DNA of 64,000 bases from positions 62,001 to 126,000 of the forward strand of contig JAIMBJ010000006.1 of assembly GCA_023511455.1 (NCBI GenBank). Direction: 5' to 3'. The notes under the pieces are model-generated. The model was not told the DNA's origin and made no database searches. It saw only the letters and a program-made list of their open reading frames with translations. How positions within the stretch are numbered: position 1 is the first letter of the stretch; each line of letters opens with the position of its first letter. Below are positions 573-58,767 of the stretch, in pieces. The position numbers and the translations under genes were made by a program. The stretch is from Bacillota bacterium (lineage in GTDB: Bacteria; Armatimonadota; HRBIN16).

Positions 573-1915
573 GGTGATGTCTCCTGAAAACGGTCAACAG
601 CCTCTTTGATCCATCCAGCGAGCTGTTCCGTCAACGATGAGTATCTAAAAGGCGTCAAGTAATCGGAACGGTCGCAGAATAACTCACCCCTGCTATATTC
701 GTGCCATAACTGCTCCATCGTTTGATGTACTTGCTCCGCATTTTGCGCGATATAGCACTGCGGCATGTTTTGCAGTAGCCTGCCCGTGGCGCTGTTGCTC
801 TCCGTCATGGTAATAATCGGCTTACCGGTTGCCAGATACTCATATACCTTGCCGGGCACCTGCATCGGTTGCTGTTGGGCAAGCAGCAATAAAGCCTCGC
901 ATCGCTCCATGATTGCCGGCACTTCTGTTCTCGACACAGGAGGATGAACCTGTACGATCTCACTGATGCCAAACTGGCTGGCGATGCCCCCGACGTCTTC
1001 CACGCTTTCGCCATAGAACAGCAGCTCCAGACGCTTCTTGTTCTGCGGATTCGCCTGCAACCACAAGCTTACTCCTTTCAAAAAGTCATACGTGGTGCGA
1101 CAGCCGTAAATAGTGCCAAAGTGACCAATGACCAGCTTGTCTGAGCGGACATATTGGGTTTGTGCAGATTGTACGGTGTCTGTGATGCCGTTGGGCAGAA
1201 CGCGCACCTTTCCTGCCACCCAGGGGTACTCGTTTTCAAAGTGTTCTCGGAGAACAGGGGTGTTTGCAACGACGATGTTTGCCCTTTGCAGGCACTGGTC
1301 GAGAGCCTTTTGATGCCAGCGGCGGACTACAGGACATTTGATGGTGGTGCGCCAGCCCTCCACAAGGGTTATCCACGGGTCGCGCATGTCCATAATCCAC
1401 GGTAAGCGGTATCTTTCGGCAACGGCGCGGGCGATGAGACTGCAGGTACGCGGAGGGGAGGTGCTGTAAACAGCGCCGAACGATACCTGCTGGACCAGCT
1501 CATGCACAGCTCGCATTGCCGGATCATACCAGCCGGCATACCGGTCGGGGTACTCCAGCATCTCCAGAAGGCAGCTGAGCAGTAGGGGCTTTCGTCGTAA
1601 CCCTGTCCCGGACCGAGCAGTGTTGCCGTCTCCCGCTTTACGTGTTTGTTCTAGCCTTAAAAGAGCCTTCATTTTATCTACGAATAGCCGGATGTTATCA
1701 TATCGGGCTGGATGTACTGCAGTGCGAACGATTCGTTCGTCCGGAATATCCGCTGGCTGAAAGTCCGGATTCAGCTGGCGTGCGTGCTCCGGTCTAACGG
1801 TCAACACCCAGGTTTGTATCCCGAACTGCGGAAGTAACCGTGCGAACTCATAGGGACGCACTGCCCCTATCGCTCCGTCCGGCGGAAAGTGGTATGCGAT
1901 GACAAGCAGATTCAC
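569..1915 (-). CDS. Glycosyltransferase, GT4-like
   Basis: A 448-residue cytoplasmic GT-B-fold glycosyltransferase. The N-terminus MNLLVIAYHFPPDGAIGAVR is typical of GT4 enzymes that bind the acceptor with the first Rossmann domain. The C-terminal domain has KVRVLPNGI, LVIGHFGTIYG and the donor-binding segment VPGKVYEYLATGKPIITM, which contains the conserved E-Y-x-A-x-G-K-P pattern. No signal peptide or membrane segment is seen. It overlaps the heparinase-like gene upstream and the WecB gene downstream by 4 bp each, so translation is coupled. Donor and acceptor cannot be read from sequence. It probably adds one sugar of the repeat unit exported by the flippase at the head of this operon. Confidence 0.9.
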   Translation of the reverse strand: MNLLVIAYHFPPDGAIGAVRPYEFARLLPQFGIQTWVLTVRPEHARQLNPDFQPADIPDERIVRTAVHPARYDNIRLFVDKMKALLRLEQTRKAGDGNTARSGTGLRRKPLLLSCLLEMLEYPDRYAGWYDPAMRAVHELVQQVSFGAVYSTSPPRTCSLIARAVAERYRLPWIMDMRDPWITLVEGWRTTIKCPVVRRWHQKALDQCLQRANIVVANTPVLREHFENEYPWVAGKVRVLPNGITDTVQSAQTQYVRSDKLVIGHFGTIYGCRTTYDFLKGVSLWLQANPQNKKRLELLFYGESVEDVGGIASQFGISEIVQVHPPVSRTEVPAIMERCEALLLLAQQQPMQVPGKVYEYLATGKPIITMTESNSATGRLLQNMPQCYIAQNAEQVHQTMEQLWHEYSRGELFCDRSDYLTPFRYSSLTEQLAGWIKEAVDRFQETSP

Positions 1916-4122
1916 AGTAACGCCTCCTCTAAAACGGCTGGCTCATCCAGCACCACACCGTAGCCCGGCGAAAAGTTTAGTCGGTTCCGGGCGTACGTGA
2001 AGTCAAACCCGCTTTTCCCCGAAACATCTTCCGCGAGATCGATACAAATGACCTCCTCATCACCTATCGTAATCATGCGATGTATCGGAAACCCGAAGCC
2101 TGTATGCCTGACAAGAATGCCTTCCTCCCCGAAGTACAGGCACTCGGCGTGAAACGAATCCACGTGTTCGAAGACTCGTTTCGAAAGACGACCCGGCTCC
2201 TTACCCTGCCATGCGGGGGTGAAGTGAGCATGTATGGAACGGTAGCGGTTCCTCATCTCCGGTAGCGCTCCATACAGGTACGTGCCGGGGTCCCGAATGA
2301 TGTCTCGCCCATCCATCCACAACTCGATGTGCATCTGGTCGTTGTGCGCGTGTCCCCACCGCTGACCGGACTTTTGCCTGCCGCAGCGGACGAGAAGATA
2401 CAATCCCGATGACCGGAAGAGATATACCCCAAAATCCGCAAACATGCAAAGGCGCAACCCGCTGCGCAAGCCGCCTCCCGTGGTTTTGAAGCGGTGCTCC
2501 TTTCTCTGGGGCGTCTGTTCCGCTTTTTTCCGAAAGGCTTCCCAGACCTCTAGTTTGCCGGCACGGGCTTTCTCTTCCTCCCGCCCTACCGGCACCGGTA
2601 GCCGGTAAAGTGACAAAACCGTAGAGACAGCCCACTCTAAGGGACACCGCTTTGCATACGGTTCGAAGGCTTCATCGCCAAACAGACCACAGGCAAAACC
2701 CAGCAGGTGGGAGTGGTCTAGCGTGTCCTCGTAAATATGTGGGGCACTGTCGGGGAGTTCTTCAAAATCGCGCAAGGTGAGAGTATGCTCCTTGGCCTCC
2801 TTCACAGTCATGACCCGCCACGCCGCTTGCAACTTGATGAACCTGCCGCTATCGTTATCTCCTATCTGCGCCACCTGACCATTCGGCTTGGTGATGCGCC
2901 ACGTAAAGCGTGCCATCCGATGCACGCGGTCTGCATACCACTCCGGGAATGGGTGAGTATGCTCTCCATCGCCTGCTGGGTAGAGCGGCATCGGTGCTGG
3001 CTTCAGTCGCCGAACAAGCCGATGGTCGTATCTGCTGAGCGCTTCACGCTTCTCTGCAGGTAGACCAAGCACCAGAGCAGTACACCACATCACTATCTCC
3101 GCGCTTAGCCGATGGTAGCAGGTGGATGCCTCGAAATTGCTCCCGTCCGCGTGAAACTGGTAATCGACCTCGGTGATTAATTCCTGCACTGCAAACGCCA
3201 GGACAGCGTCGGTAAGCGGTGTGCTCGGCAGATACGCTGCACAAAACAACAACCCTGCGATGTTCGCCAGATAGTGGTTGTTGCGGTAACGGGGTGACCA
3301 TTCTAAGTGGTGCAAAATGTGCCAGAAGTGCTCATGAACGCCACGAGACAGAAGAAGCTTAAACTCATCATCAAACACGGTTCCGCAAGCGGAAAACAGG
3401 TCATATGCGACCAACCAATTAACGACCCGGATCGCCACGTCCATGGAGCAGTACCAGTTCACACCGTATCGCGGAGGGTTGGTCGCCATGAAGTCCAGCA
3501 CCTGATTGCGGAACTCGCGGGCATAAACTTCGGCTGGTTCAAAACCTGCCTCGCCCCTGCGGGCGAGCGCGCAGGCAATAGCGAGGTGTGGGAGATGCTG
3601 CATCCGCGATAGTTCCCAGGGAACCTTGATGTCTGCTCCCTTGGCAGGTGAGACGGGAACCAGTTTGAACCACGTGTTTTCGTCCCAACGGTAGCCGGAC
3701 TTGACATCCAGTTGCCAGTCAATGGGTGTGTAATCTCCCTGAATGAGCTGCCATATTTGACGAGACTGATGAAGGTTGCCCGGCGAGACCCTGCCTTTGA
3801 GCCACTCCGCTCCTGCATCTGCGCGGACGTGACTGCCCTTGTCGTATCGGTATCCCTCCACACCCCGGCAGTGCATCCCGTGTTTCACCTGCACCCATCC
3901 CGAACCGAGCACGTCGAAACGGTGCTGCAGGTAGTAGCTGGAGAGAAGAGCGTATACCCTGGCATCCTCTGCAGGCAGATGGAAATCTGACATTCCGGAT
4001 AGAAAGCGGTTCAACGTGTCTCCAGAATAGCCGATGGCATAAGTGCACTTGCCGTATTCCCAAGCAGATTGCAGCGAGTATACGGCTTTTTTCAATGTCT
4101 TTTTGATGCCAAGACCTGTCAT
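1912..4122 (-). CDS. Heparinase II/III-like polysaccharide lyase family protein
   Basis: A 736-residue protein. The middle part has the alpha/alpha-toroid style of heparinase II/III and alginate lyases: YRNNHYLANIAGLLFCAAYL, the stretch HADGSNFEASTCYHRLSAEI, and MARFTWRITKPNGQVAQIGD. The C-terminal beta-rich domain has HAHNDQMHIELWMDGRDIIR followed by DPGTYLYG, the typical H-x-D signature. No clear N-terminal signal peptide is seen, unlike most secreted lyases. Genes of this family are common inside capsule and exopolysaccharide operons, where they are thought to trim or release polymer. It lies between the flippase and a GT4 gene with 4-bp overlaps on both sides. Substrate is unknown. Confidence 0.88.
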   Translation of the reverse strand: MTGLGIKKTLKKAVYSLQSAWEYGKCTYAIGYSGDTLNRFLSGMSDFHLPAEDARVYALLSSYYLQHRFDVLGSGWVQVKHGMHCRGVEGYRYDKGSHVRADAGAEWLKGRVSPGNLHQSRQIWQLIQGDYTPIDWQLDVKSGYRWDENTWFKLVPVSPAKGADIKVPWELSRMQHLPHLAIACALARRGEAGFEPAEVYAREFRNQVLDFMATNPPRYGVNWYCSMDVAIRVVNWLVAYDLFSACGTVFDDEFKLLLSRGVHEHFWHILHHLEWSPRYRNNHYLANIAGLLFCAAYLPSTPLTDAVLAFAVQELITEVDYQFHADGSNFEASTCYHRLSAEIVMWCTALVLGLPAEKREALSRYDHRLVRRLKPAPMPLYPAGDGEHTHPFPEWYADRVHRMARFTWRITKPNGQVAQIGDNDSGRFIKLQAAWRVMTVKEAKEHTLTLRDFEELPDSAPHIYEDTLDHSHLLGFACGLFGDEAFEPYAKRCPLEWAVSTVLSLYRLPVPVGREEEKARAGKLEVWEAFRKKAEQTPQRKEHRFKTTGGGLRSGLRLCMFADFGVYLFRSSGLYLLVRCGRQKSGQRWGHAHNDQMHIELWMDGRDIIRDPGTYLYGALPEMRNRYRSIHAHFTPAWQGKEPGRLSKRVFEHVDSFHAECLYFGEEGILVRHTGFGFPIHRMITIGDEEVICIDLAEDVSGKSGFDFTYARNRLNFSPGYGVVLDEPAVLEEALL

Positions 4123-5606
4123 TTCTTAGTGCTCCCGTTGTTCATGCGGGATTGCAGGTTAGAGCGAAGCCGATGCCAGAGGCGCACGCACATTCTCTCG
4201 AAGATTCGCTCACTCAGCCGGTCATTGATATAGGCGACAGTTGCCAAAAAGATTGCTGCAGTCGCCACGAGCCGAATACCTGTGCTGGGGTCGCCTTGCA
4301 TACGCAGTAAGGCATCCCCACAGGCGGAAGCAATCAGGAGTAGAATAGCGAAGGATATTGCGTGTATGTCCTGCCGCACAGGCATGGTCTTCTCTGACCA
4401 AACGAGACATGTCAGGGAGAGACAGACGAAGGAAAGGAGGGTCATGATGGCGGCTCCCCATGCCCCGTAGCGGGGGATGAACCATGCGTAGCCCAGCAAG
4501 CTTGCCCCTGCAGTGAGAAGATGTGCCTTTGCTACCACTTCAGTCCGGTTGGCTAGACGCGCGCCGACGCTCCAGGGGATGTGGGCGGCAAAGAACCAGC
4601 ATCCGGCAGCGATGAGCGAAACATACTGACTTGCTTGCCAGAAGCGGGGAGCGGACATCAGCCTCAGCACGATTTCCGTGCAGAGGATAAGGGTTCCGGC
4701 AATCATCGCGAGCACCACAAGCACCATCGCCCCGGCGCGTCGGATGGATGACGTGTCCTGACTGCCCGTTGCTGTGGAAAACACCCAGGGATACCACGCT
4801 GTTACTACTACGCGCATGGAGATACTGACCAGCATGCCGAAACGGTATGCCAGAGAGTACAACCCCAGTTCGCTTTCAGTCGCATAGCGGGCGAGAAAGA
4901 AGCGATCGCTGTAGTGCAGAATGAATTGAGAGAGTGTAGCCGGGACCAGCGGCAGACCGTACCTCAATACCGAACGCAACCATGAGGTGTCCAGCAGGAT
5001 TCCGTATTTTCTGCGCACGGCGATGCCTAGCAAGGTAGACCAGGCTGCCGCATTGATGAAGTTGCTCATCGCCACGCCCCACACGCCCCAGCGGAGCACC
5101 ACCACGAGGATAATGTTTGCGGTCACCTGAGTCAGGAGTCTGCACAGGGAGATGCCTGTAAAACGCCATGGCTTACCTTCGGCACGCCACAGTGTCAGAG
5201 GCAGCTCCGCCAGGTTATGCAACAACGATGCGAGCAGCCAGACCGCCACGTAGGCAGAGTACCGCTCGTGTCCAAAGGCGAGGCGTGCGAGCTGGGGAGC
5301 CAGGGGCAAGCTCAGCGTGCAGCCGACCACAATAACCAGCAGGTTGAACGAAAAGGTGGTGGCAATCAAACGGCGGCGTTCTTCCTCGGTTTGAGCAAGG
5401 TAGTAATGACGCAGTAATGCTTCTGCCAACCCCATTGCCAGAAGAAGGTTGATGACGTCCGTAAGACGGGTAATTGTTTCGATGACACCGTAGTCCGCAG
5501 GCGATAATACCCGCGTGTATATCGGTATCATAATGAAGCCTACCAGCTGGGTGGCAATTACTCCAACCGCGTAGACGGCGGAGTCTTTAACCAGGGACCT
5601 TAGCAT
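4119..5606 (-). CDS. Wzx-type lipid-linked oligosaccharide flippase
   Basis: A 495-residue polytopic membrane protein of the MOP/MATE-like polysaccharide transporter family. It starts MLRSLVKDSAVYAVGVIATQ and continues with the usual first-helix pattern GFIMIPIYTRVLSPADYG, followed by about twelve to fourteen hydrophobic segments. Conserved features include LAEALLRHYYLA, WRAEGKPWRF, LVPATLSQFILHYSDRFFLA and SELGLYSLAYRFG. Such proteins move undecaprenyl-diphosphate-linked repeat units to the outer face. It is the first gene of the left operon, behind the sigma-70 promoter at 5701-5729. It is a close paralogue of the flippase at 13495-14946, most strongly in the first 70 residues. Confidence 0.92.
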   Translation of the reverse strand: MLRSLVKDSAVYAVGVIATQLVGFIMIPIYTRVLSPADYGVIETITRLTDVINLLLAMGLAEALLRHYYLAQTEEERRRLIATTFSFNLLVIVVGCTLSLPLAPQLARLAFGHERYSAYVAVWLLASLLHNLAELPLTLWRAEGKPWRFTGISLCRLLTQVTANIILVVVLRWGVWGVAMSNFINAAAWSTLLGIAVRRKYGILLDTSWLRSVLRYGLPLVPATLSQFILHYSDRFFLARYATESELGLYSLAYRFGMLVSISMRVVVTAWYPWVFSTATGSQDTSSIRRAGAMVLVVLAMIAGTLILCTEIVLRLMSAPRFWQASQYVSLIAAGCWFFAAHIPWSVGARLANRTEVVAKAHLLTAGASLLGYAWFIPRYGAWGAAIMTLLSFVCLSLTCLVWSEKTMPVRQDIHAISFAILLLIASACGDALLRMQGDPSTGIRLVATAAIFLATVAYINDRLSERIFERMCVRLWHRLRSNLQSRMNNGSTKK

Positions 5607-5700
5607 GTTGCTAACGCGTTCTCACCTTTCGCCCATCGGGGTGTCGGTCTTGATCCTCAGCAGAAAGGTTCCGGTTGACCGCAGTGCTTTCTGCCCGTCC

Positions 5701-5729
5701 ATCATACCGTAGCGTGCAATGGTTGTCAA
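5701..5729 (-). promoter_or_regulatory. Sigma-70 promoter of the left polysaccharide operon
   Basis: On the minus strand there is TTGACA (5729-5724), a 17-bp spacer and TATGAT (5706-5701). The -35 is perfect and the -10 matches five of six bases. Transcription would start about 90 bp upstream of the flippase start at 5606. It faces away from the sigma-54 site at 5846. Confidence 0.75.
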
Positions 5730-5733
5730 GGCA

Positions 5734-5771
5734 GCTTGTATTGTGGAATACTTCACAAAAACAGTACAAGC
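5734..5771 (+). promoter_or_regulatory. Nested inverted repeat, candidate activator-binding site
   Basis: GCTTGTA (5734-5740) pairs with TACAAGC (5765-5771), and inside them TTGTG (5741-5745) pairs with CACAA (5754-5758). The centre lies about 95 bp upstream of the sigma-54 -24 element, a usual distance for a bacterial enhancer-binding protein. It also lies just behind the divergent -35 box, so it could act on both operons. Role is inferred from position and symmetry only. Confidence 0.4.
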
Positions 5772-5845
5772 CGCTCGTAATTTTGCTGGTTTTATCTGAA
5801 AAAGTTTGAAAATTTCCCGTTCAAGAGGGCATGTATCTTCAGGAA

Positions 5846-5861
5846 TGGTACGAATCTTGCA
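5846..5861 (+). promoter_or_regulatory. Sigma-54 (-24/-12) promoter of the exosortase operon
   Basis: TGGTACG, four bases, then TTGCA. The consensus is TGGCACG-N4-TTGCW, so only one base of the core differs and the GG-to-GC spacing is exact. It is correctly oriented about 110 bp upstream of the exosortase start. Sigma-54 control by the PrsK/PrsR-type pair is known for several PEP-CTERM/exosortase loci. No activator gene is present in the window. Confidence 0.72.
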
Positions 5862-5882
5862 TTATGTATAAGTGGGGAATAA

Positions 5883-5901
5883 ACGGGGCGGTAGACCCCG
5901 T
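5883..5901 (+). promoter_or_regulatory. Hairpin in the 5' leader of the exosortase mRNA
   Basis: ACGGGG (5883-5888), loop CGGTAGA, CCCCGT (5896-5901): a perfect six-pair stem about ten bases after the expected sigma-54 start site. It is followed by GGCGATCAAACGGGTAG and an unpaired purine-rich stretch up to the ribosome site. No T-run follows, so it is not a terminator. It does not match a riboswitch class I can recognise. It could set mRNA stability or bind a regulator. Confidence 0.4.
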
Positions 5902-5969
5902 GGCGATCAAACGGGTAGTATTGTGAATGTGGTTCGCGCGACCTTGATGCGAATGAAGGAGTGAGGTGT

Positions 5970-6830
5970 ATGGAAGTAGAAGCGGTACAAAGGCAAGAGG
6001 TGCCGGCATATACCCATCGCTTGCAACTGGCTCTATTCATCGTTACATTACTGCTTTTCATCGGTTTCTTCTGGCCGAGTATTGTCTTTCTCATCGACCG
6101 ATGGTCACAGAGCGATGAGTTTTCGCATGGCTTTCTGGTACCGCTGGTCAGCCTGTTCATTCTGTGGCGCAAGAGGGAGGTGATTCGTGAGACACCGTTG
6201 CAGGCATGTGTGTGGGGGCTGCCAGTGCTGGGGCTTGCCCTGCTGATGCAAATCGCCAGTGAATGGGCATCGGTAGCGTTTTTGAAAGCTCTTGCGCTGC
6301 CGATGGCGATAGGTGGGCTGGCGTGGTATCTCGCAGGCACGCGCATGATGCGAGTGGCTTTGTTCCCTTATCTCTTTCTTTACTTCGCGGTGCCCTGGCC
6401 TGACTTCGCCATCGAGTTGCTGAGCGTTCCCTTGCAGCACTTCAGCGCTGCGGCATCCACCATGTTGTTGGGCGTACTCGGAGTGCCCATCGAGCGCGAC
6501 GGAGTGCATATGTGGACGCCGCGCTTTAATGTGGAGGTGGCGGTTCCCTGCAGTGGTATTCGGTCGATGGTAGCCATTCTCGGTATTGCGGCACTGGTGG
6601 GGTATTTGACACAGGGCAGGTTGTGGGCGAAGGGTGCAGTGTTTCTGGCAGGTATCCCCATCACGATGCTGGCGAATGTGCTGCGTATCGCAGCCATTGT
6701 CGTGATGGGACATTACATCAATGAGAAGTTCGCCATGACCTTTTTCCATGACTATTCGTCGCCGTTTCTGTTTTTTATCTCGGCGTTAAGCCTGCTGGGT
6801 GTCAAAAAACTGATGGAGAAGGTACAATGA
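5970..6830 (+). CDS. Exosortase (PEP-CTERM sorting transpeptidase family)
   Basis: A 286-residue integral membrane protein with about eight hydrophobic helices. The catalytic residues of the exosortase/archaeosortase family are all visible: Cys194 in VPCSGIRSM, Arg239 in ANVLRIAAIV and His260 in FFHDYSSPFLFF. The N-terminal motif DEFSHGFLVPLVS is also typical. The enzyme is thought to cleave PEP-CTERM proteins at the membrane and pass them to an unknown acceptor. I use the ATG at 5970 because AAGGAG lies 8 bp upstream; a GTG at 5961 would overlap that site. It is followed by EpsI with a 4-bp overlap. Its sequence does not let me name the exosortase subtype. A PEP-CTERM protein is encoded at 58042-58767. 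Confidence 0.93.
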   Translation: MEVEAVQRQEVPAYTHRLQLALFIVTLLLFIGFFWPSIVFLIDRWSQSDEFSHGFLVPLVSLFILWRKREVIRETPLQACVWGLPVLGLALLMQIASEWASVAFLKALALPMAIGGLAWYLAGTRMMRVALFPYLFLYFAVPWPDFAIELLSVPLQHFSAAASTMLLGVLGVPIERDGVHMWTPRFNVEVAVPCSGIRSMVAILGIAALVGYLTQGRLWAKGAVFLAGIPITMLANVLRIAAIVVMGHYINEKFAMTFFHDYSSPFLFFISALSLLGVKKLMEKVQ

Positions 6831-7510
6831 AAGAGTATCGTCCCAATCTATGGATAGTCATCGTGATGATGCTGGTGGCGTGGGGCATGGTGGGGTATGC
6901 CCGCCAGGCAGAGAACCGTGTCATCACATTCCCCATCGATGTGAATCAGGTACCTGAGACCATCGCGGGCTTCCGCATGGTGGAACAGCAGGAGCTGGAT
7001 GACCTGTCGAAACAGATGTTGACGCCGGATGCCTATATTGTGCGCAACTACGCCAACGCGGCAGGCTATCCGGTGAACGTGCTGGTCATCTACGGGCACC
7101 AGAAGAACACCTTCCATTCGCCTGGCTACTGCCTGCCGGGCGGTGGATGGGCGATACAGAAGAAGGATGTGGAACGATTATCGATGGTTGCTCCCGACGG
7201 ACGGTCGTTCCAGGCGGAGATGAATCGTTTCTTGTTACAGAAGGGTGTGCAGAAACAGGTAGTGCTGTACTGTTTCGTGGAAGGTGGGCGTGTCACGCCC
7301 AGTATCTTCCGTCACAACTGGTATCTTTTGCAGGACAGGTTGTTGCATCGCCCGGCGATGGGGGCGTTGCTGCGAATCATCGTGCCCGTTGCCGATAATG
7401 AGGAACAGGCAGCGGAGATCGCGCGGGCTTTCGCCCGCGAGCTGGTACCCATCGTACAACATCAGCTGGTCGGGAAGCAAGTGGAAACAAGCGCGCGAAG
7501 GAGTGAGTGA
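6827..7510 (+). CDS. EpsI family exosortase-associated protein (DUF3485)
   Basis: A 227-residue protein with one N-terminal membrane anchor (LWIVIVMMLVAWGMVGYA) and a large outer domain. The domain shows the EpsI features: a block around VNVLVIYGHQKNTFHSPGYC, then LPGGGWAI, and a conserved tail with FCFVEGGR-like and HNWYLL segments. In many species EpsI is fused to the exosortase C-terminus; here it is a separate gene joined by an ATGA overlap. Its biochemical role is unknown, but it always accompanies exosortases of exopolysaccharide loci. The next gene overlaps or abuts its stop, depending on the start chosen. Confidence 0.9.
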   Translation: MKEYRPNLWIVIVMMLVAWGMVGYARQAENRVITFPIDVNQVPETIAGFRMVEQQELDDLSKQMLTPDAYIVRNYANAAGYPVNVLVIYGHQKNTFHSPGYCLPGGGWAIQKKDVERLSMVAPDGRSFQAEMNRFLLQKGVQKQVVLYCFVEGGRVTPSIFRHNWYLLQDRLLHRPAMGALLRIIVPVADNEEQAAEIARAFARELVPIVQHQLVGKQVETSARRSE

Positions 7511-9918
7511 AAGCGATGAATTCGGTCATCATGAGCGAAGCGAGCACCAATCAGTGGGACTTCTGGCGGATATACCGCATTTTGCGCAAGCGTATCTGGT
7601 TGATACTGGCTGCGGTCATTATCACCGTCGGCACGGCGGTGGTGGGCTTACAGTTCTTCGGCAGGCAGTATATCGCCTATCGCTACGTGCAGCCTTCGGA
7701 GAGTATTCTGCGCCCGCCAGGGGATCGAGCCAGCAGTGAGGAGCGCGGGGCGCGTGACCGCAAGTTAGCGACGTTGCTGCAGCTGGCGAACTCGCCGGGA
7801 GTGGCGGAAATGGCTATGACCATGACGTACGCGGATATCTCCGCCGCAGGAGAAGAGGTAGCCCCTGGGCGTGCCAGTGTTGCGGTGCTCAGTGACGTCG
7901 GACTGACGCGCGAAGAAATCGTGGAGATGCGTCAGAAAAACAGGATTCAGGCGCAGGTGAACACAGCGTCTGGCGAATCGGGGCGAGTGAATACAGACCT
8001 CATTGTGTTTGTCGCGAGGGCTCCAAACCCACAACAGGCGAAGGCTATCGTGGACACCTTCACCGTTGCCTTCAAGCGGTTCTACGAAGAATACAGCCGC
8101 CAAAGCTTGCGAGCCAACGTCAACTTCCTCAAGCGGGAAGTGGAAAGCGCTCGGGCGAAGCTGGACGCAAAGGAGAAGGAACTCAAGGAGCTGCGCCAGC
8201 AGAAGGGTATCGTCGACCTGCAGTCGGCAGTGCAGGGTGACTATTCGATTCTCACACCGTTGCGCCAGAAAGCCGAGGAGTTACAAACTCAACTTGCTTC
8301 CACTCGCACGTTGCTAGCCGAGAAGCGCCGGCAGTTTGCGCAAACACCAGAAACCCTACCCGACCCCGCGGGCAAAACGGTGGCTGCTCAGGAGCTGGAA
8401 AAGGAGCTGGCGACGCTCACCACCCAGTACACCAGCATGAGAGGCACCTACACGGAAGAGAACCCCATTATGCAGCAGCTGCAGCGACGTATCCGAGAGG
8501 TGCAGCAAAAGCTGCAAGAGGAGGAACGGAATCGTCCCCGCGTAACAAACGCTGCTTATCTGAGCCTGCGGGAAGAGATACGCACGCTGGAGGCAAAAGA
8601 GCGTGCCCTCGCCACCGAGCTGGCGCAAACACTAGCGCAGGTCTCGAAATACGAGCAGCGTTTGGCGGGTTACCGAGGGCTGGATGTGGACATTCAGGCT
8701 GCGACCGCGGACTATCAGATGCTGCTGGACAGCTACAACAGATTATTCAATCAGTATCAGGCGGCGCTACTTAACCTGAACGCCAACACGGAGAGCTTCA
8801 TCACCCTGATGGGACAGACCTCGGTGGAAGGTCCGGTACGCGCCGGACCCAACCCGATGCAGGTGATTATCGCGGCGATTTTGCTGAGCCTGTTCCTGGG
8901 CATCGGGATTGCGGTGGGGCTAGAGGTAGTGGATAACACGGTGAAGACCACCGCCGATGCGCAGCAGCTAATCGGATTGCCGGTGACAGGGGTCATCCCG
9001 CGGTTGGAGAGCGGAGACAGCTACGTGCTGCCCAAGATTACGCACGTGCTGCCGGCGTCGCCGCACGCGGAGTCCTACCGCTTCGTGGGTGAGGACATCC
9101 TGTTGACACTGGAAGAGCATCCCAATATCCGTTCCATCATGGTGGCGACGGTGCGCCCCGGTCAGGGAGGAACCTCCACTATTGCCAACCTGGCTATCAC
9201 ACTGGCGCAGGGTGGCAAGCGGGTGATTCTGGTGGACGGCGATATGCGCAGACCGTCGCTGCACAAAGTGTTCAACGTCAGCAACGATGTGGGATTGAGT
9301 TCCGTGCTGTCGAACGGACTGCAAATCGCGGAGGTGCTCCGCCCCACGGAGGTGGACAACCTCGTGCTGGTACCCGCCGGCCCGATACCCAAGAACCCGT
9401 GGCAGCTGCTGCGTTCGCAGAAGATGCAGGAGGTGGTGGACGCGCTGGAACAGAGCTGCGACATCGTGCTGTTTGACACACCCAGCGCGGCAGTGTTCGC
9501 CGATGCCTCCGTGATGGCATCGCTGGTGGATGGCGTCGTGGTGGTTGTCCGCGCCAACCATATCCCGCGCGGCAGCGAGCTGCAGGTGCGCCACCTGCTG
9601 AACAAGGCAAAGGTGCGGTTGTTGGGCGTGGTGCTGAATGACGCCGCGCCGGAGATGGTGGACAGCTACTATTACCACAGCCACTATTATCACACGAACG
9701 GCAAAGGCGAATTGCCTCCGCCGAGCAGTGGGAAACCGTCTTCGGGGGCGAAGCCGGTAACGGTTCGGCAGGCGAAGAGCCGGCGGGTCAGCGCCCCGAA
9801 GGCCGAGAAACCGGCAGAAACGGAGAAAACACATATTGTGCCGGTAGACCCCAACGCACGGGTAGAGGTGCGCAGGGAAGACGTGTTGGGCAAAGAGGAG
9901 AGCGGAGGGCGTGTATGA
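7507..9918 (+). CDS. Polysaccharide co-polymerase with tyrosine-autokinase-like domain (Wzz/BY-kinase fusion)
   Basis: A protein of about 800 residues. An N-terminal Wzz domain has a first helix (IWLILAAVIITVGTAVVGL), a long coiled coil (about residues 200-400) and a second helix (MQVIIAAILLSLFLGIGIAV). The cytoplasmic domain resembles BY-kinases: Walker A' VILVDGDMRRP (Asp577, Asp579), Walker B CDIVLFDTP (Asp657) and a tyrosine cluster (721-723, 727-728). The Walker A loop reads RPGQGGTST, so the invariant lysine is Gly555; kinase activity is therefore doubtful. Such proteins control chain length. Numbering uses the GTG at 7507. An ATG at 7516 is equally possible, since AAGGAG at 7498-7503 is 3 bp from one and 12 bp from the other. 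Confidence 0.88.
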   Translation: MKAMNSVIMSEASTNQWDFWRIYRILRKRIWLILAAVIITVGTAVVGLQFFGRQYIAYRYVQPSESILRPPGDRASSEERGARDRKLATLLQLANSPGVAEMAMTMTYADISAAGEEVAPGRASVAVLSDVGLTREEIVEMRQKNRIQAQVNTASGESGRVNTDLIVFVARAPNPQQAKAIVDTFTVAFKRFYEEYSRQSLRANVNFLKREVESARAKLDAKEKELKELRQQKGIVDLQSAVQGDYSILTPLRQKAEELQTQLASTRTLLAEKRRQFAQTPETLPDPAGKTVAAQELEKELATLTTQYTSMRGTYTEENPIMQQLQRRIREVQQKLQEEERNRPRVTNAAYLSLREEIRTLEAKERALATELAQTLAQVSKYEQRLAGYRGLDVDIQAATADYQMLLDSYNRLFNQYQAALLNLNANTESFITLMGQTSVEGPVRAGPNPMQVIIAAILLSLFLGIGIAVGLEVVDNTVKTTADAQQLIGLPVTGVIPRLESGDSYVLPKITHVLPASPHAESYRFVGEDILLTLEEHPNIRSIMVATVRPGQGGTSTIANLAITLAQGGKRVILVDGDMRRPSLHKVFNVSNDVGLSSVLSNGLQIAEVLRPTEVDNLVLVPAGPIPKNPWQLLRSQKMQEVVDALEQSCDIVLFDTPSAAVFADASVMASLVDGVVVVVRANHIPRGSELQVRHLLNKAKVRLLGVVLNDAAPEMVDSYYYHSHYYHTNGKGELPPPSSGKPSSGAKPVTVRQAKSRRVSAPKAEKPAETEKTHIVPVDPNARVEVRREDVLGKEESGGRV

Positions 9919-10964
9919 GAGAATCCCGTGCAGAAGCCGCTGTTTGGAAGCAGCAGCCCGCGAAGGAGGCAGATCAGTCGCTTCTGGCTTTGTCACAGGA
10001 GAGTGAAATGGCAGGCAAGCGAAGAGTGCTCATTGTAGGGGCGGGCGAAGTGGGGCATCAGCTGGCTCGCACTCTACAGGATGCGGGATATGACGTTGTC
10101 GGCTTTGTGGATGACGAGGTAGAGAGCGTCCTGGGAGGGTTGCGGGTGCTCGGGTGCCGCACGGATATCGAACGCCTCGTGAAGGAGCACGATATCGACG
10201 AAGTGTTGATTGCCTATGCTCCTACGTGGCAACAGCGGCTGGCAGAGATGTTAGTAAGCAACGGGCACCGTCGCGTTCAGATAAAGGTGGTACCGAATAT
10301 CGTGGACATCGTGTTGAGTGGGCCGGTAGCCGACAGGGTGGGCGATATACCTGTAGTGGACATCACGCCGCGCCTGCCGTCAAAGCGGCTTCTGCTTGCG
10401 AAACGGGTGTTTGACGTGCTGTTCGCCTCGGTTGGGCTGCTCGTTAGCTTCCCGTTCTTGCTGCTGGCCGCCATCGCAATCAAGACGACTTCTCCAGGAC
10501 CAATCATCTACAAACAGGAGCGCGTCGGAAAGGACGGCAAGATTTTCTACATCTTTAAGTTGCGGACCATGGTTGCAGATGCGGAGAAGGTTTCTGGTCC
10601 CGTGCTGGCAAGTAAAGGAGACCCTCGTATCACTACGGTGGGACGTATCTTGCGGGCGACGAAGTTGGACGAAGTGCCGCAGTTCGTTAATGTGTTGCTG
10701 GGTAACATGAGCATCGTCGGCCCTCGCCCTGAGCGCCCCAAGTTCGTGGAGGAGTATCGGGAGCGCATCCCGCACTACGATGAACGTCACCGTATCAAAC
10801 CCGGCATCACCGGCTGGGCGCAGGTGATGGGCGGGTATCATACGACGGTCTATGACAAACTGCGCTACGATTTAATGTACCTGTACCACATGTCTCTGTG
10901 GCTTGATTTGAAGATTCTTCTCCTGACCGTCTGGACGATATTGAAGCGTCGGGAGGGATGCTGA
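9915..10964 (+). CDS. Polyprenyl-phosphate sugar phosphotransferase (initiating enzyme, WbaP/PglC-like)
   Basis: A 349-residue enzyme. Residues 35-150 form a Rossmann-like domain starting RRVLIVGAGEVGHQLA. The C-terminal half is the bacterial sugar transferase domain: a membrane-inserted helix (KRVFDVLFASVGLLVSFPFL), then SPGPIIYKQERVG, FKLRTM, LDEVPQFVNVLLGNMSIVGP and RIKPGITGWAQV. This domain moves a sugar-1-phosphate onto undecaprenyl phosphate, the first step of repeat-unit assembly. The four N-terminal membrane helices of full-length WbaP/WcaJ are absent. It overlaps the co-polymerase gene by 4 bp. An internal ATG near 10008, with AGGAG in front, would remove a low-complexity start, so the N-terminus is uncertain. 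Confidence 0.92.
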   Translation: MRESRAEAAVWKQQPAKEADQSLLALSQESEMAGKRRVLIVGAGEVGHQLARTLQDAGYDVVGFVDDEVESVLGGLRVLGCRTDIERLVKEHDIDEVLIAYAPTWQQRLAEMLVSNGHRRVQIKVVPNIVDIVLSGPVADRVGDIPVVDITPRLPSKRLLLAKRVFDVLFASVGLLVSFPFLLLAAIAIKTTSPGPIIYKQERVGKDGKIFYIFKLRTMVADAEKVSGPVLASKGDPRITTVGRILRATKLDEVPQFVNVLLGNMSIVGPRPERPKFVEEYRERIPHYDERHRIKPGITGWAQVMGGYHTTVYDKLRYDLMYLYHMSLWLDLKILLLTVWTILKRREGC

Positions 10965-12310
10965 TGAGCACGCAGGTTGGCGTGCCATCTGCTCAGCGTG
11001 TACCCATTGCCTGGGCGGTTACAGTCGCAGTGGCGTTCGCTGCAGGGGTTGCGCTCCTGCTGGTACCAGTGGAATTCGTCTTTGGCGTGGTGCTTGCACT
11101 TATCGCTGCTTGTGTGTTTCTGTTCAGTCCGTATGCAGGAGCAGTCACGTTCATAGCTTTCTACTACCTGAGACCGGTAGACCTTGTTCCCCAGCTGGGC
11201 ATGCTGCGGCTGCCTCTGTTCATCGCCAGTGTGACCTCCACCGGCTTGTTCGTGCGGCTGTTGCTCAATCGTCAGAAACTCATCGAGGGCTGGTATGTGA
11301 AATGGTTTCTCGCCCTGTGGGGAGTCATGCTGATGTCAGTGCCTCTGTCTCTGTACCGCTCGCAGTCGCTATCCGGGGCGCAGGACTTTCTGAAGAGTGT
11401 GGCAATGGTCTGGATGATTTACATGGCAGTGCGCAGTGAGAAGCAGCTGACGTTTGTGGTGCGAATGTTGGGCTGGATGGCGTTATGGTTGGCAGGGTCT
11501 ACCATATACAACTACAGAACTGGTCAGGTAGAGACGAGTGGTGATCTCACACGCGCTGGCGCCGAGTCCAGTATGCTAGGCGACCCCAACGACCTGGCTG
11601 CCTATATCCTGATGCTGTTTCCGCTGTGTTACTATCTGTTCTTCAATGACCCGAAGCGGTGGCTGAAAGTGGTTTACGGACTCGCTATGGTCGCCATTCT
11701 GGTCGCAGTGGTGTATACCGGATCGCGCGGTGGCTTTTTGGGGCTGATTGTCCTGCTGTTTCTGTTATGGTTACACTCGAAACGCAAAGTCGTGGGTTTA
11801 TTCATCGGTTTGGCGGTGTTTAGTGCGGTGTGGTTCGCAGCGCCATCAGAGTACCGTGAGCGGATGCGGTCGATCACCAATTATCAAGAGGACGAATCCG
11901 CTATGAACCGCGTGGAGTATCGCAAAGCTGCGGTGCGGATGTTTAAGCATAACCCATTTACTGGTATCGGCTACAAGAACTTCCCCGATTTTGCGCGCCA
12001 GTTTGGGGCACCAGGTTCGCAAACAACGCATAACATGTATTTTTTGGTATTGGGCGAGCTGGGTGGACTTGGCTTGCTGGTGTTCCTGACCATCTGGATA
12101 CGCAGTTTGCTGGCTGCACGGCAGCTGGCGAAGGCGCAGCACTGGTTACTCCACGCCCTTGGAATGGGCGCCCTCATCGGCTTAATGGACCTGATGGTGA
12201 CGGGATACTTCTTATCCATCTCTTATTATCCCTACCACTTCATCCTGATGGCACTGGTAGCCGCGGCGCAGGCGCATCTGTTGCCGCGCGTGCGGGAAGG
12301 GACAGCGTAA
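10964..12310 (+). CDS. O-antigen ligase/polymerase family membrane protein
   Basis: A 448-residue protein with about twelve membrane helices and the large periplasmic loop of the Wzy/WaaL (Wzy_C) family. Family features include SMLGDPNDLAAYILMLFPL, YTGSRGGFLGLIVLL, the loop segment HNPFTGIGYKNFPD and TTHNMYFLVLGELGGLGLL. In this setting it is more likely the repeat-unit polymerase than a lipid A-core ligase. I use the ATG at 10964, which overlaps the preceding stop by one base and has GGGAGG 7 bp upstream; the ATG at 10958 sits directly on that ribosome site. It is followed by the GT2 gene with a 1-base overlap. Confidence 0.88.
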   Translation: MSTQVGVPSAQRVPIAWAVTVAVAFAAGVALLLVPVEFVFGVVLALIAACVFLFSPYAGAVTFIAFYYLRPVDLVPQLGMLRLPLFIASVTSTGLFVRLLLNRQKLIEGWYVKWFLALWGVMLMSVPLSLYRSQSLSGAQDFLKSVAMVWMIYMAVRSEKQLTFVVRMLGWMALWLAGSTIYNYRTGQVETSGDLTRAGAESSMLGDPNDLAAYILMLFPLCYYLFFNDPKRWLKVVYGLAMVAILVAVVYTGSRGGFLGLIVLLFLLWLHSKRKVVGLFIGLAVFSAVWFAAPSEYRERMRSITNYQEDESAMNRVEYRKAAVRMFKHNPFTGIGYKNFPDFARQFGAPGSQTTHNMYFLVLGELGGLGLLVFLTIWIRSLLAARQLAKAQHWLLHALGMGALIGLMDLMVTGYFLSISYYPYHFILMALVAAAQAHLLPRVREGTA

Positions 12311-13491
12311 TGTGGTGGGTTATTGGCATCTGTTTTGCTTTCGTAGTTTATACTTACGCAGCCTATCCATTGTTGCTTTGGCTTCTGGGCAAAATTCGAC
12401 AGCGAGAGCATGAGACCTTCGGCTCTGACGCGGATTTGCCCACTGTAACGGTGGTCATTGCCGCTCATAACGAAGAGAGCAACATCGCGGGACGGCTTGA
12501 GAACGTTTTAGGTTCGGACTATCCGCCAGACAAACTGAACGTCGTGGTTGCCTGTGATGGTTGTACCGACAACACGGCGGCAGTGGCGTCGAAGTACGAG
12601 CGAGTGCAGGTGCTGGAGATTTCTCCGCACCGTGGCAAGGCGGTTGCCCTGAACGAAGCGGTGCGACGCGCCACGGGCGAGGTGATTGTCTTCGCGGATG
12701 CCCGCCAGCGGTTCGCTCGCGATACGATACGTCAACTGGTTACATCTCTGCGCCACAACGGCGTGGGGGCAGCCGGGGGGGACCTGATTCTGATAGACTT
12801 CGCTGGCGCACCGCAGGCGATGGGCGCGTACTGGCGCTATGAGAAGTTGGTTCGGGGACTAGAGGCGCGCGTGGATTCGCCGATACAATGTAGCGGGGCT
12901 ATCTACGCCATCTACCGACGGCTTTTCGTGCCGATGCCGGAAGGACTGGTGCTGGACGACATGTGGGTGCCGCTGCATATTCGTCTCCAGGGGTTCCGCA
13001 TTGCCCTTGCTTCGGAGGCAAAGGCTTATGATGCGGTCACCCCCTCCTACGAACGCGAATTCAAACGCAAGGTGCGTACGCTGGCGGGCAACTATCAGCT
13101 GATCTGGGCAGCGCCATGGCTGCTGCTGCCCTTTGTGAACCCGCTGTGGTGGCAGTTCATCTCGCACAAGGTGTGCCGCCTGCTGGTGCCGTATGCGCTG
13201 ATAGCCATGTATGGCGCGTCGTGGGCGTCGCTGGGCAAACCATACGGGGCCGCACTGGTGTTGGCGCAGACCGCATACTACCTGCTGGGTGCGGCGGCGT
13301 GGCTGTTCCCCGCGCTGGCGCGACGGTTCCGGCTGGCGGGGCTGGCGGGCTCGTTCCTGAGCCTCAACGCGGCGGCGGCGGTGGCGCCGTTCGCCTTTAT
13401 GCTGGGCAAGGGGCGGGTGCGCTGGGAACGCTCGCCCATGATCTCACCACAAACCACCACCGACGAAGGGCAAAAGGTGAGGACGTATTAG
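12310..13491 (+). CDS. Membrane-bound family 2 glycosyltransferase
   Basis: A 393-residue enzyme with an N-terminal helix, a GT-A catalytic domain and three or four C-terminal helices. The catalytic domain shows TVVIAAHNEESNIAGRLENV, ACDGCTDNTAAVA (the nucleotide-binding aspartate), VFADARQRF in place of the usual DxD, and a LVLDDMWVPLHIRLQGFR block with the catalytic-base-like ED/DD pair. The layout resembles processive hyaluronan/cellulose synthase relatives, but the QxxRW motif is not obvious. The KVRTLAGNYQL segment stands at the equivalent place. It probably extends the lipid-linked glycan. It shares one base with the polymerase gene and lies 3 bp before the second flippase. Confidence 0.86.
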   Translation: MWWVIGICFAFVVYTYAAYPLLLWLLGKIRQREHETFGSDADLPTVTVVIAAHNEESNIAGRLENVLGSDYPPDKLNVVVACDGCTDNTAAVASKYERVQVLEISPHRGKAVALNEAVRRATGEVIVFADARQRFARDTIRQLVTSLRHNGVGAAGGDLILIDFAGAPQAMGAYWRYEKLVRGLEARVDSPIQCSGAIYAIYRRLFVPMPEGLVLDDMWVPLHIRLQGFRIALASEAKAYDAVTPSYEREFKRKVRTLAGNYQLIWAAPWLLLPFVNPLWWQFISHKVCRLLVPYALIAMYGASWASLGKPYGAALVLAQTAYYLLGAAAWLFPALARRFRLAGLAGSFLSLNAAAAVAPFAFMLGKGRVRWERSPMISPQTTTDEGQKVRTY

Positions 13492-13494
13492 CGG

Positions 13495-14946
13495 ATGTTA
13501 AGGACGCTGGTCAAAGATTCCGCCGTTTACGCGGTTGGCACTATCGCCAGCCGACTGGTCGGGTTCATTATGATACCCGTTTATACGCGCGTGCTGACGC
13601 CCGCGGATTACGGTATTATCGAGACCATCATTCGATTGGTGGATGTTATCGGCATGTTTCTGTCTTTAGGTTTGGCAGAGGCGCTGTTGCGGCACTATTA
13701 CCTCGCGAAGACGGATGACGAGCGCAACCGACTTATCGGTACGGTCTTTAATCTGAACCTGCTCGTGGTAGCTGCAGGCGTTCTGGTATTTTGGCCTCTT
13801 TCGCCGTGGTTGACTCGCCTTGCGTTCGGGCATGATCGGTATACGCTCTATGTTGCCGTGTCACTCATTGGGATGATGATAGGCAGCCTGATAGAGTTGC
13901 CGCTGACCCTGTGGCGGGCGGAAGGCAAGCCGTGGAGGTTCACCACAATTTCTCTAGTGAAGCTCTTTACGCAGCTGAGTGCGAACATCATTCTGGTGGT
14001 GTGGTTACGCTGGGGCGTGTGGGGAGTGGTCATGAGCGGACTTCTCAACGCCGTGCTATGGTCGGTGGTACTAGGTGTGCTGGTTCGTCTGAGGTATGGT
14101 AGCTGCTTTGACAAGCATTGGCTGGCACAGGTGCTGCGTTACGGGTTGCCACTTGTGCCTGCAAGCATGTCACAGTTCGTATTGCACTACAGCGACCGCT
14201 TTTTCCTCACTCGCTATGCGTCCGAGAGCGAGCTGGGCTTGTACTCGTTAGCGTATCGGTTTGGGATGTTGGTGAGTGTGTTCTTTGGGATATTGAGCAG
14301 GGCATGGTGGCCTTGGGTTTTCCGTGTGGCAGAAGAGGAAGAGGGCGGCAAACAGTTGTGTCGTGGAGGGGCATTTATTTTGTTATCCGGCGCTGCTTTT
14401 TGCACCGCCGTCATACTAATGTCATCACCCGTGATTCGAATGGTTGCAGCCCCAAGCTTCTGGGATGCAAGTCGTTTCGTTGCCCCGATTGCGGTTGCCT
14501 ACTGGTTTTTTATCTCTAGTTCCTCGTTGCGAGTTGGCGCCTTAATGGCTAATCAAACACCTAAGTTTGCAATAGCCAACATTGCCTCAGCGGTGGTATG
14601 TCTCCTTTTAAACGCTGTGCTGATTCCTAGGTACTCAGCTTGGGGAGCAGCCTTCGCTACAGTCTTCTCCTTTGCGGTTTTTGCTTTCTTTGTCTGGGCT
14701 GTTGCACAGCGGGTGAACCCGTTGCCACATGATTATGGAGCTATTGTCCTGTCTCTTGTAGCGATGTTAGCGGCGTGTTGGGTAGATAAGCACCTGCGTT
14801 TCGCTCTATGGATGGATTTGTTGGCTCGCGTGGGGATATGGGTGGGAATAAGCAGTGCGCTTGCGCTACTCTTCGTCCGGAATCATAAAGTACGACTTCT
14901 CGTGGTACCCCACTGGGAGAAGAAAGTATGGACACAGAGAACGTGA
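13495..14946 (+). CDS. Second Wzx-type flippase
   Basis: A 483-residue polytopic protein of the polysaccharide transporter family with the same marker segments as the flippase at 4119-5606: KDSAVYAVG, GFIMIPVYTRVLTPADYG, LAEALLRHYYLA, WRAEGKPWRF and FVLHYSDRFFLTRYASESEL. Similarity is strongest in the N-terminal half and fades in the C-terminal third, where this copy looks less GC-rich. The start has GGTGAGG about 11 bp upstream. Two flippases in one locus suggest either two different repeat units or a recent duplication that is diverging. Confidence 0.92.
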   Translation: MLRTLVKDSAVYAVGTIASRLVGFIMIPVYTRVLTPADYGIIETIIRLVDVIGMFLSLGLAEALLRHYYLAKTDDERNRLIGTVFNLNLLVVAAGVLVFWPLSPWLTRLAFGHDRYTLYVAVSLIGMMIGSLIELPLTLWRAEGKPWRFTTISLVKLFTQLSANIILVVWLRWGVWGVVMSGLLNAVLWSVVLGVLVRLRYGSCFDKHWLAQVLRYGLPLVPASMSQFVLHYSDRFFLTRYASESELGLYSLAYRFGMLVSVFFGILSRAWWPWVFRVAEEEEGGKQLCRGGAFILLSGAAFCTAVILMSSPVIRMVAAPSFWDASRFVAPIAVAYWFFISSSSLRVGALMANQTPKFAIANIASAVVCLLLNAVLIPRYSAWGAAFATVFSFAVFAFFVWAVAQRVNPLPHDYGAIVLSLVAMLAACWVDKHLRFALWMDLLARVGIWVGISSALALLFVRNHKVRLLVVPHWEKKVWTQRT

Positions 14947-57995: not shown

Positions 57996-58041
57996 AGAGG
58001 CGACTATACTCTCTGACGTGAAAGGAGGCATGAGTTATCCA

Positions 58042-58767
58042 ATGCGAATCTCTAAATTGCTCGTAGCTGTGGCGTTGGGCGTGCTGGCTCTGACAGCGGA
58101 GGCGCAGCTCAGCGTCGGTATCAACGCCGTTAACAACGCCACCATACAGCCTGCAGGCCCTCGGACGGGTGTTAACGGCAAACGATTTTTCAACATCGAG
58201 GGGAACAATTTTGGCAGCTTCGCCAGTTTTGGCGTGGTGGACTTTTCTGCCGCCGACCTGAACCTGACCCTGCCTGTGGTCGACATCCAGTTCATCACCC
58301 TCAAGCTGTATGATGCACCCGCCAGCTTCAGTGCAAACGGCACCGTGCGCTTCTGGCTGAGTGAAGACACCGCCACCGATATTGAGCCCGGAACCTCACC
58401 TTTGCGCTGGGACGCAACTGCATTGCCAGATGGGGTTGGTACGCAGCTGAGCCCGGTGCATCTTCTGGGCACAGGTGCGTACGTCAAAACCGCCAACGAC
58501 ACCGAATTTGTGTATGCGCTGTCACTTCCAGCCGCAGCGAAGCCCTACCTGTTGGGCCAGATTAATAGTGCGGGAAAGATACGCCTCGTCGTGACTCCAG
58601 CCGAAGATACAGTTGCAGCCACCTACGCCGGCTACAACAATGCGAACATCCGCGCACCGCGTTTGGAAATGGAACTGGTGCCCGTGCCGGAACCTGCCTC
58701 GGTAGCGGTATTGCTGCTGGGAGTAGGAGGGTTGGCAGGAGCGTCATTGCGGAGGCGTGGGCGCTAA
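58042..58767 (+). CDS. PEP-CTERM sorting domain protein
   Basis: A 241-residue exported protein. The signal peptide is RISKLLVAVALGVLALTAEA. The body (about 22-210) is beta-rich and Ala/Thr/Asn-rich, with no known domain. The C-terminus is a textbook PEP-CTERM tripartite signal: VPEPASVA, a helix (VLLLGVGGLAGASL) and RRRGR. It is therefore a likely substrate of the exosortase at 5970, 52 kb away. The start is uncertain: GGAGG at 58024-58028 is 13 bp before the ATG at 58042 and only 1 bp before the ATG at 58030. Confidence 0.9.
   Translation: MRISKLLVAVALGVLALTAEAQLSVGINAVNNATIQPAGPRTGVNGKRFFNIEGNNFGSFASFGVVDFSAADLNLTLPVVDIQFITLKLYDAPASFSANGTVRFWLSEDTATDIEPGTSPLRWDATALPDGVGTQLSPVHLLGTGAYVKTANDTEFVYALSLPAAAKPYLLGQINSAGKIRLVVTPAEDTVAATYAGYNNANIRAPRLEMELVPVPEPASVAVLLLGVGGLAGASLRRRGR

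Follow-up and report, generated by a model that had tools for sequence, protein, structure and literature searches.

Through pattern searches of a whole genome and comparison with its relatives, our analysis of a 64,000-nucleotide stretch of DNA from an uncultured Armatimonadota bacterium (the window) suggests how an exosortase operon, whose products would sort proteins to the polysaccharide coat, may be tied into a wider set of surface genes. We propose, with a probability of roughly 0.75, that the operon for an exosortase, an EpsI-type protein, a Wzc-like co-polymerase and an initiating sugar transferase is driven by a sigma-54 promoter (5846-5861) and belongs to a surface regulon of some 16 such promoters, which would be served by an activator without a helix-turn-helix (HTH) domain. 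The functions assigned here to promoter, activator and regulon are read from sequence. The window's genome (G000) is a 3.85 Mb draft of ~99% estimated completeness, in which the regulon was defined by pattern searches. Nine further genomes of the same genus, G003 and G005 among them, were searched, eight of which hold an orthologue of the exosortase at 80–82% identity; counts of nine out of nine for the exosortase promoter and its hairpin refer to G000 and these eight relatives. Genus members share orthologous promoters and so are not independent replicates. The labels G001 and G008 also denote genomes, and G042, G013, G051 and G029 are Armatimonadota genomes from families other than that of G000.

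The gap at 5607-5969 carries all four elements that an earlier note on this DNA had placed there, a sigma-70 promoter facing left, a sigma-54 promoter facing right, a nested inverted repeat and a leader hairpin, each where it had been located, with a repeat slightly larger than described. The -24/-12 element TGGTACGAATCTTGCA (5846-5861, forward strand), with GG at 5847-5848 and GC at 5859-5860, fits the consensus TGGYACGN4TTGCW exactly, as had been claimed, and is the only zero-mismatch match in the 64 kb window, where by our own estimate from base composition ~0.03 would be expected by chance. It is kept in nine of nine genus genomes holding the exosortase, with variation confined to one spacer base (A or T), and sits in intergenic DNA that otherwise diverges across the genus. 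The stretch that runs from the box through the hairpin and the Shine-Dalgarno sequence to the ATG at 5970 is conserved in all nine genomes, spacing included. Judged from these comparisons, 5846-5861 is a real sigma-54 promoter, with a predicted transcript start at ~5871-5872, and the proposal that sigma-54 controls the exosortase operon gains from the conservation of this promoter, the presence of rpoN and the membership of the box in a genome-wide set.

Within the predicted 5′ untranslated region of the operon, the leader hairpin ACGGGG-CGGTAGA-CCCCGT (5883-5901, forward strand) pairs in nine of nine species, with a nearly invariant loop and one pair that occurs as GC, GU or AU, so that the earlier call of this element stands and extends across the genus. 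Because only that pair varies, the covariation is suggestive rather than proof: it does not go beyond shuffles, 77 of 500 of which scored equally. An Rfam search of the exosortase leader gave no credible match. Since the Shine-Dalgarno sequence and the ATG are conserved, translation most likely begins at ATG 5970 rather than GTG 5961. The forward-strand operon opens with the exosortase (EpsH/Xrt family, 5970-6830; PF09721, E 4e-61), which passes the generic TIGR02602 cut-off and stays below that of XrtA (TIGR03109, 191.2 versus 208 bits). It continues with an EpsI-type exosortase-associated protein (6827-7510; DUF3485, E 9e-41; TIGR02914 above cut-off), a Wzc-like polysaccharide co-polymerase with tyrosine autokinase (7507-9918; TIGR01007 above cut-off), a polyprenyl glycosylphosphotransferase that would act as initiating sugar transferase (9915-10964; PF02397, E 4e-68; TIGR03025 above cut-off), an O-antigen ligase/polymerase-like protein (10958-12310; PF04932, E 2e-26), a GT2 glycosyltransferase (12310-13491; PF00535, E 1e-19) and a Wzx-like flippase (13495-14946; PF13440, E 4e-27). 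At the second exosortase locus of G000, no sigma-54 site was found within the 13 kb examined.

A genome-wide search with the exact pattern TGGNACGNWWYTTGC found 18 sites in G000 versus 1 for a reversed-pattern control, and 13–27 versus 0–4 in each of eight genus relatives. Two of the 18 are intragenic, one at window position 10639 and one in a dnaG-like gene, and the other 16 look like true promoters. Seven of these stand before genes whose secreted products have PEP, PDP or PDAST tails. The remaining nine targets are the exosortase operon, two dockerin-tailed secreted proteins, a pilin-like protein, the cold-shock protein CspA, a REC-PilZ gene and three sites with no evident gene. Even when only genes found by TIGR02595 are counted, PEP-CTERM genes follow 4 of the 16 promoters versus 25 in the genome (P ~3e-6, assuming ~3,500 genes). 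G005 and G001 each have an additional target gene that, by eye, resembles polysaccharide-export (Wza-like) proteins. In other families with HTH-less activators, PEP-CTERM genes, here called by regular expression, lie downstream of 6/12 sites (G042), 6/20 sites (G013) and 7/18 sites (G051), and the link between sigma-54 and PEP-CTERM proteins is therefore not confined to the genus.

Seen from the side of the PEP-CTERM genes, a sigma-54 site precedes 5–6 of the 25 TIGR02595 genes of G000, 3 of 28 in G003 and 3 of 27 in G005, so that the regulon takes in a minority of the presumed substrates. A scan of upstream regions, as proposed in the earlier note, recovered the sigma-54 box at these 5–6 genes; the half-sites of the inverted repeat were not found at the other sigma-54 promoters examined. 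A distinct PEPG signal for sigma-54 targets is possible: it is significantly more frequent among those of G000 (4/6 versus 1/18, P 0.006), but not significantly so in G003 or G005 (P ~0.11 each), whose orthologues are not independent of those in G000. The PEP-CTERM gene inside the window (58018-58767) has no sigma-54 site upstream. A variant sorting signal, PDAST followed by a hydrophobic stretch and basic residues, occurs in secreted proteins with sigma-54 promoters (loci L011, L012 and L014, G000:C22; orthologues in G001, G003 and G005), and these proteins are not among the TIGR02595 search matches. Strong sigma-54 promoters without a clear downstream open reading frame are found at L009, L103 and L017 and, in relatives, at L183, L170 and L171; an Rfam search of the sigma-54 transcripts without an obvious reading frame found no family, and small RNAs or unrecognised short genes are possible products.

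Of the two intragenic matches, the one at 10639, inside the sugar transferase gene, was discarded: it has no A/T tracts and its box is not kept in relatives. The other, TGGAACGATTCTTGC (L259:1795-1809; G000:C9:32294-32308), lies in the 3′ part of the dnaG-like gene, upstream of a sigma-70-family rpoD-like gene. Its sequence is unchanged in G001, G003, G005 and G008, which may reflect either an intragenic sigma-54 promoter serving rpoD or simply the conservation of a coding sequence.

The sigma-54 reading had been made to hinge on rpoN, of which G000 has one copy, with all three sigma-54 domains (AID, CBD and DBD). A PF00158 search returned one strong match (254 bits, E ~1e-75) and five weak ones, which Pfam assigns to a ComM-type Mg-chelatase, two Clp ATPases, a ClpX-like ATPase and a MoxR-like ATPase. 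The strongly matching REC-AAA+ protein is the only sigma-54 activator of G000, although a second could be missed in a draft genome. It has 406 residues and ends just past the AAA+ lid, within ~40 residues of NVREL, with no Fis HTH. Pfam HTH_8 is absent from the activators of G000, G003, G005, G013, G042 and G040, and was detected in five of five extended Armatimonadota homologues tested as positive controls. Short tails that end at about the same place occur throughout the nine genus members and also in several other Armatimonadota families; a long C-terminal extension is present in eight further homologues. From this distribution we take the absence of the HTH to be lineage-wide and not a local frameshift. 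In a tree of the activators the HTH-less proteins cluster more than chance, with up to three changes needed, and a single origin of the loss is not settled by it. In 58 of 61 Armatimonadota genomes, rpoN and an activator are either both present or both absent, and two genomes that lack both have zero sigma-54 sites.

Upstream of the activator gene lie genes for an 884-residue GAF-GAF-PAS histidine kinase and an ABC-type exporter pair, and downstream a REC-PilZ gene with its own sigma-54 promoter; the order activator, sigma-54 site, REC-PilZ recurs in two other families (G042, G029). Where a GAFTGA loop is usual, the majority of the genus's HTH-less activators, together with some of those from other families, carry NAFTGA, with SAFTGA and NAYTGA once each (L105-L113, L118, L119, L125, L127). 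In G051, a second activator (L319-L322, G051:C12) lies next to sigma-54 sites that follow a different dialect, with AATTGCT for TCTTGCA. One of these sites precedes a flgB-like gene, so that flagellar and PEP-CTERM genes may fall into separate sigma-54 sets in this genome.

An activator without a DNA-binding domain is not expected to have a specific enhancer. The earlier view that the exosortase operon needs an enhancer-binding activator accordingly holds up in part: sigma-54 control and a single activator are supported, but that protein lacks the HTH with which an enhancer would be bound. This bears directly on the idea of a classical divergent hub, in which the inverted repeat GCAGCTTGTATTGT / ACAGTACAAGCCGC (5731-5774; arms at 5731-5744 and 5761-5774, 86% complementary) would bind such an activator and thereby control either the exosortase operon alone or both operons. 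A real repeat is present ~75–115 bp upstream of the sigma-54 box, a usual distance for an enhancer; yet it is not conserved in G003, and a search of the 300 bp upstream of each of the other sigma-54 promoters examined found neither of its half-sites, and on both grounds we rejected it as an enhancer. The linkage of the two operons is equally restricted: the left operon faces the exosortase only in G000 and G003, and other examined genomes have a different left neighbour while retaining the sigma-54 promoter, which makes the divergent pairing a feature of these two genomes and not a conserved hub. Taken with the missing DNA-binding domain of the sole activator, these observations leave a single hub with the repeat at its centre very improbable, and we do not follow the earlier note on this point. 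It is also unlikely, if less extremely so, that a sigma-70 promoter drives most transcription of the exosortase operon, with the sigma-54 site accessory or idle. A weak rightward sigma-70-like match (9/12) does exist at 5723-5752, but it falls in an unconserved stretch, whereas it is the sigma-54 box and its spacing to hairpin and Shine-Dalgarno sequence that all nine genomes preserve.

The left operon itself, on the reverse strand, comprises a flippase as first gene (4119-5606; PF13440, E 8e-25), a heparinase II/III-like lyase (1912-4122; PF16889, E 2e-16) and a GT4 glycosyltransferase (569-1915; PF13692, E 4e-7). The sigma-70-type promoter that had been described for it, TTGACA-N17-TATGAT (5729-5701, reverse strand), is borne out as a plausible one: it matches at 11 of 12 positions, is the best of four promoter-like sites in the region (1.1 expected), and has both hexamers identical and the spacer diverged in G003, the only relative found with the same flippase on the left. 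A further inverted repeat, GCAGAAAG...CTTTCTGC (5660-5694, reverse strand), lies in the left-operon leader, has exact 8-nt arms, is kept in G003 and is a possible RNA hairpin.

What the sigma-54 promoters of the genus do share upstream is a set of phased A/T tracts. At the exosortase promoter, AATTTT, TTTT, AAAAA and AAAATTT follow one another at ~10-bp steps (5779-5815, forward strand), a block conserved across the genus. The 16 promoters of G000 have 19 T runs of at least four 15–75 bp upstream, versus 3.0 expected from base shuffling, at steps of ~11 bp; the Rayleigh statistic is 13.1, versus a maximum of 7.3 in 300 dinucleotide shuffles, and reaches 10.3–19.1 in three other species of the genus. 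When 71 genus sites are taken together, the A+T content has maxima at -43, -31, -22, -11 and -2 relative to the TGG. A/T tracts every ~10–11 bp are the pattern expected of intrinsically curved DNA, and the block is probably a curved-DNA element, as inferred from its sequence. We considered whether the tracts are instead the binding site of a separate protein, either IHF/HU-like or a DNA-binding partner that recruits the HTH-less activator. In its favour, the upstream element has a consensus, aaAAAaTTTt..aaATTTTtcc...aAAa.c..caaAAACCCCgttTg-TGG, its T tract begins ~21, 33, 43 or 56 bp upstream and hence on one helical face, and IHF at sigma-54 promoters is well known (PMC3897727, PMC7962754). 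Yet what the promoters have in common is the periodicity of the tracts and not one fixed word, the tract positions slip by whole turns, and no candidate protein was identified; we regard a dedicated protein as possible, though less likely than not. Phasing is not a phylum-wide rule: it is unconvincing in G013 and absent in the GC-rich G042, which also has an HTH-less activator, and the tracts are therefore not a general requirement for such activators.

These observations can be assembled into a mechanism in which promoter conservation, the shared promoter set, the single activator, the absence of its HTH and the phasing of the tracts are read from sequence, and to which phosphorylation, enhancer independence, DNA curvature with its role, and transcription itself are added by inference. 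The GAF-GAF-PAS histidine kinase would phosphorylate the sole REC-AAA+ activator, and the active, HTH-less ring would then remodel RNA polymerase–sigma-54 at all of the promoters from solution, with no specific enhancer. Promoter choice would rest on a strong -24/-12 box and, in this genus, on the upstream A/T tracts phased at ~10–11 bp, which probably curve the DNA around the polymerase or toward the ring. Such curvature may act by increasing the occupancy of the promoter by polymerase or by promoting contact with the ring. The left operon would be transcribed separately from its sigma-70 promoter.

Sigma-54 activation is enhancer-dependent in the textbook account, and, to our knowledge, sole activators that lack a DNA-binding domain have been documented in Helicobacter and Chlamydia. 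The FlgR protein of Helicobacter pylori has been described as an enhancer-independent activator (cited in PMC3162934), and chlamydial CtcC has a REC-AAA+ makeup with no HTH (PMC7482065). Like these, the activator of G000 is a REC-AAA+ protein of AtoC-like sequence that stops after the AAA+ lid and is the one activator for all sigma-54 promoters of its genome, and by this analogy enhancer-independent activation is most likely. Unlike theirs, its regulon consists of an exosortase operon, sorted surface proteins, a pilin-like protein and a PilZ protein, where theirs cover flagella or chlamydial late genes, in another phylum and with phased A/T tracts upstream of the promoters.

In Proteobacteria, PEP-CTERM genes are under sigma-54 with PrsK, PrsR and PrsT (PMC1569441), and in Aquincola a single gene, pepA, is RpoN-dependent (PMC9850573). 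G000 resembles the PrsK–PrsR–PrsT system in having a sigma-54 box before single PEP-CTERM genes, a two-component NtrC-type activator and a tie to exopolysaccharide genes. It nevertheless falls below all three curated cut-offs, and we rejected membership in that system: the activator (the earlier note had proposed a search for a PrsR-like one) lacks the Fis HTH and scores 424.4 versus 502.6 bits, the neighbouring kinase scores 99.1 versus 300 bits for PrsK, and no protein of G000 passes TIGR02917 for PrsT (best 206.5 versus 312.2 bits). Further differences are that G000 has no fixed upstream activator motif, that the box precedes a minority of its PEP-CTERM genes and not most, that the exosortase operon itself is a target, and that the phylum is Armatimonadota. 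Sigma-54 has been surveyed as a controller of the bacterial exterior (PMC3162934), and the targets in G000, mostly cell-surface functions, agree with that survey, whose main text makes no mention of exosortases or Armatimonadota. In the openly accessible literature covered, we found no earlier description of this combination, of the phylum, of the exosortase operon as a target or of the phased tracts.

Our findings would add another phylum, with several families, to those with HTH-less sole activators, together with a clear target set made up of the exosortase operon and exported surface proteins, and would give a first point of entry into the regulation of Armatimonadota exosortase systems. 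They also offer a testable idea of how a promoter works when its activator cannot bind DNA specifically. More speculatively, and as a generalization that we would sooner doubt than assert, loss of the activator's DNA-binding domain may have made sigma-54 a one-input global switch of the cell surface in Armatimonadota, with phased A/T tracts taking the place of enhancers in this genus, where they would recruit or position polymerase and activator through DNA architecture and not through a specific sequence.
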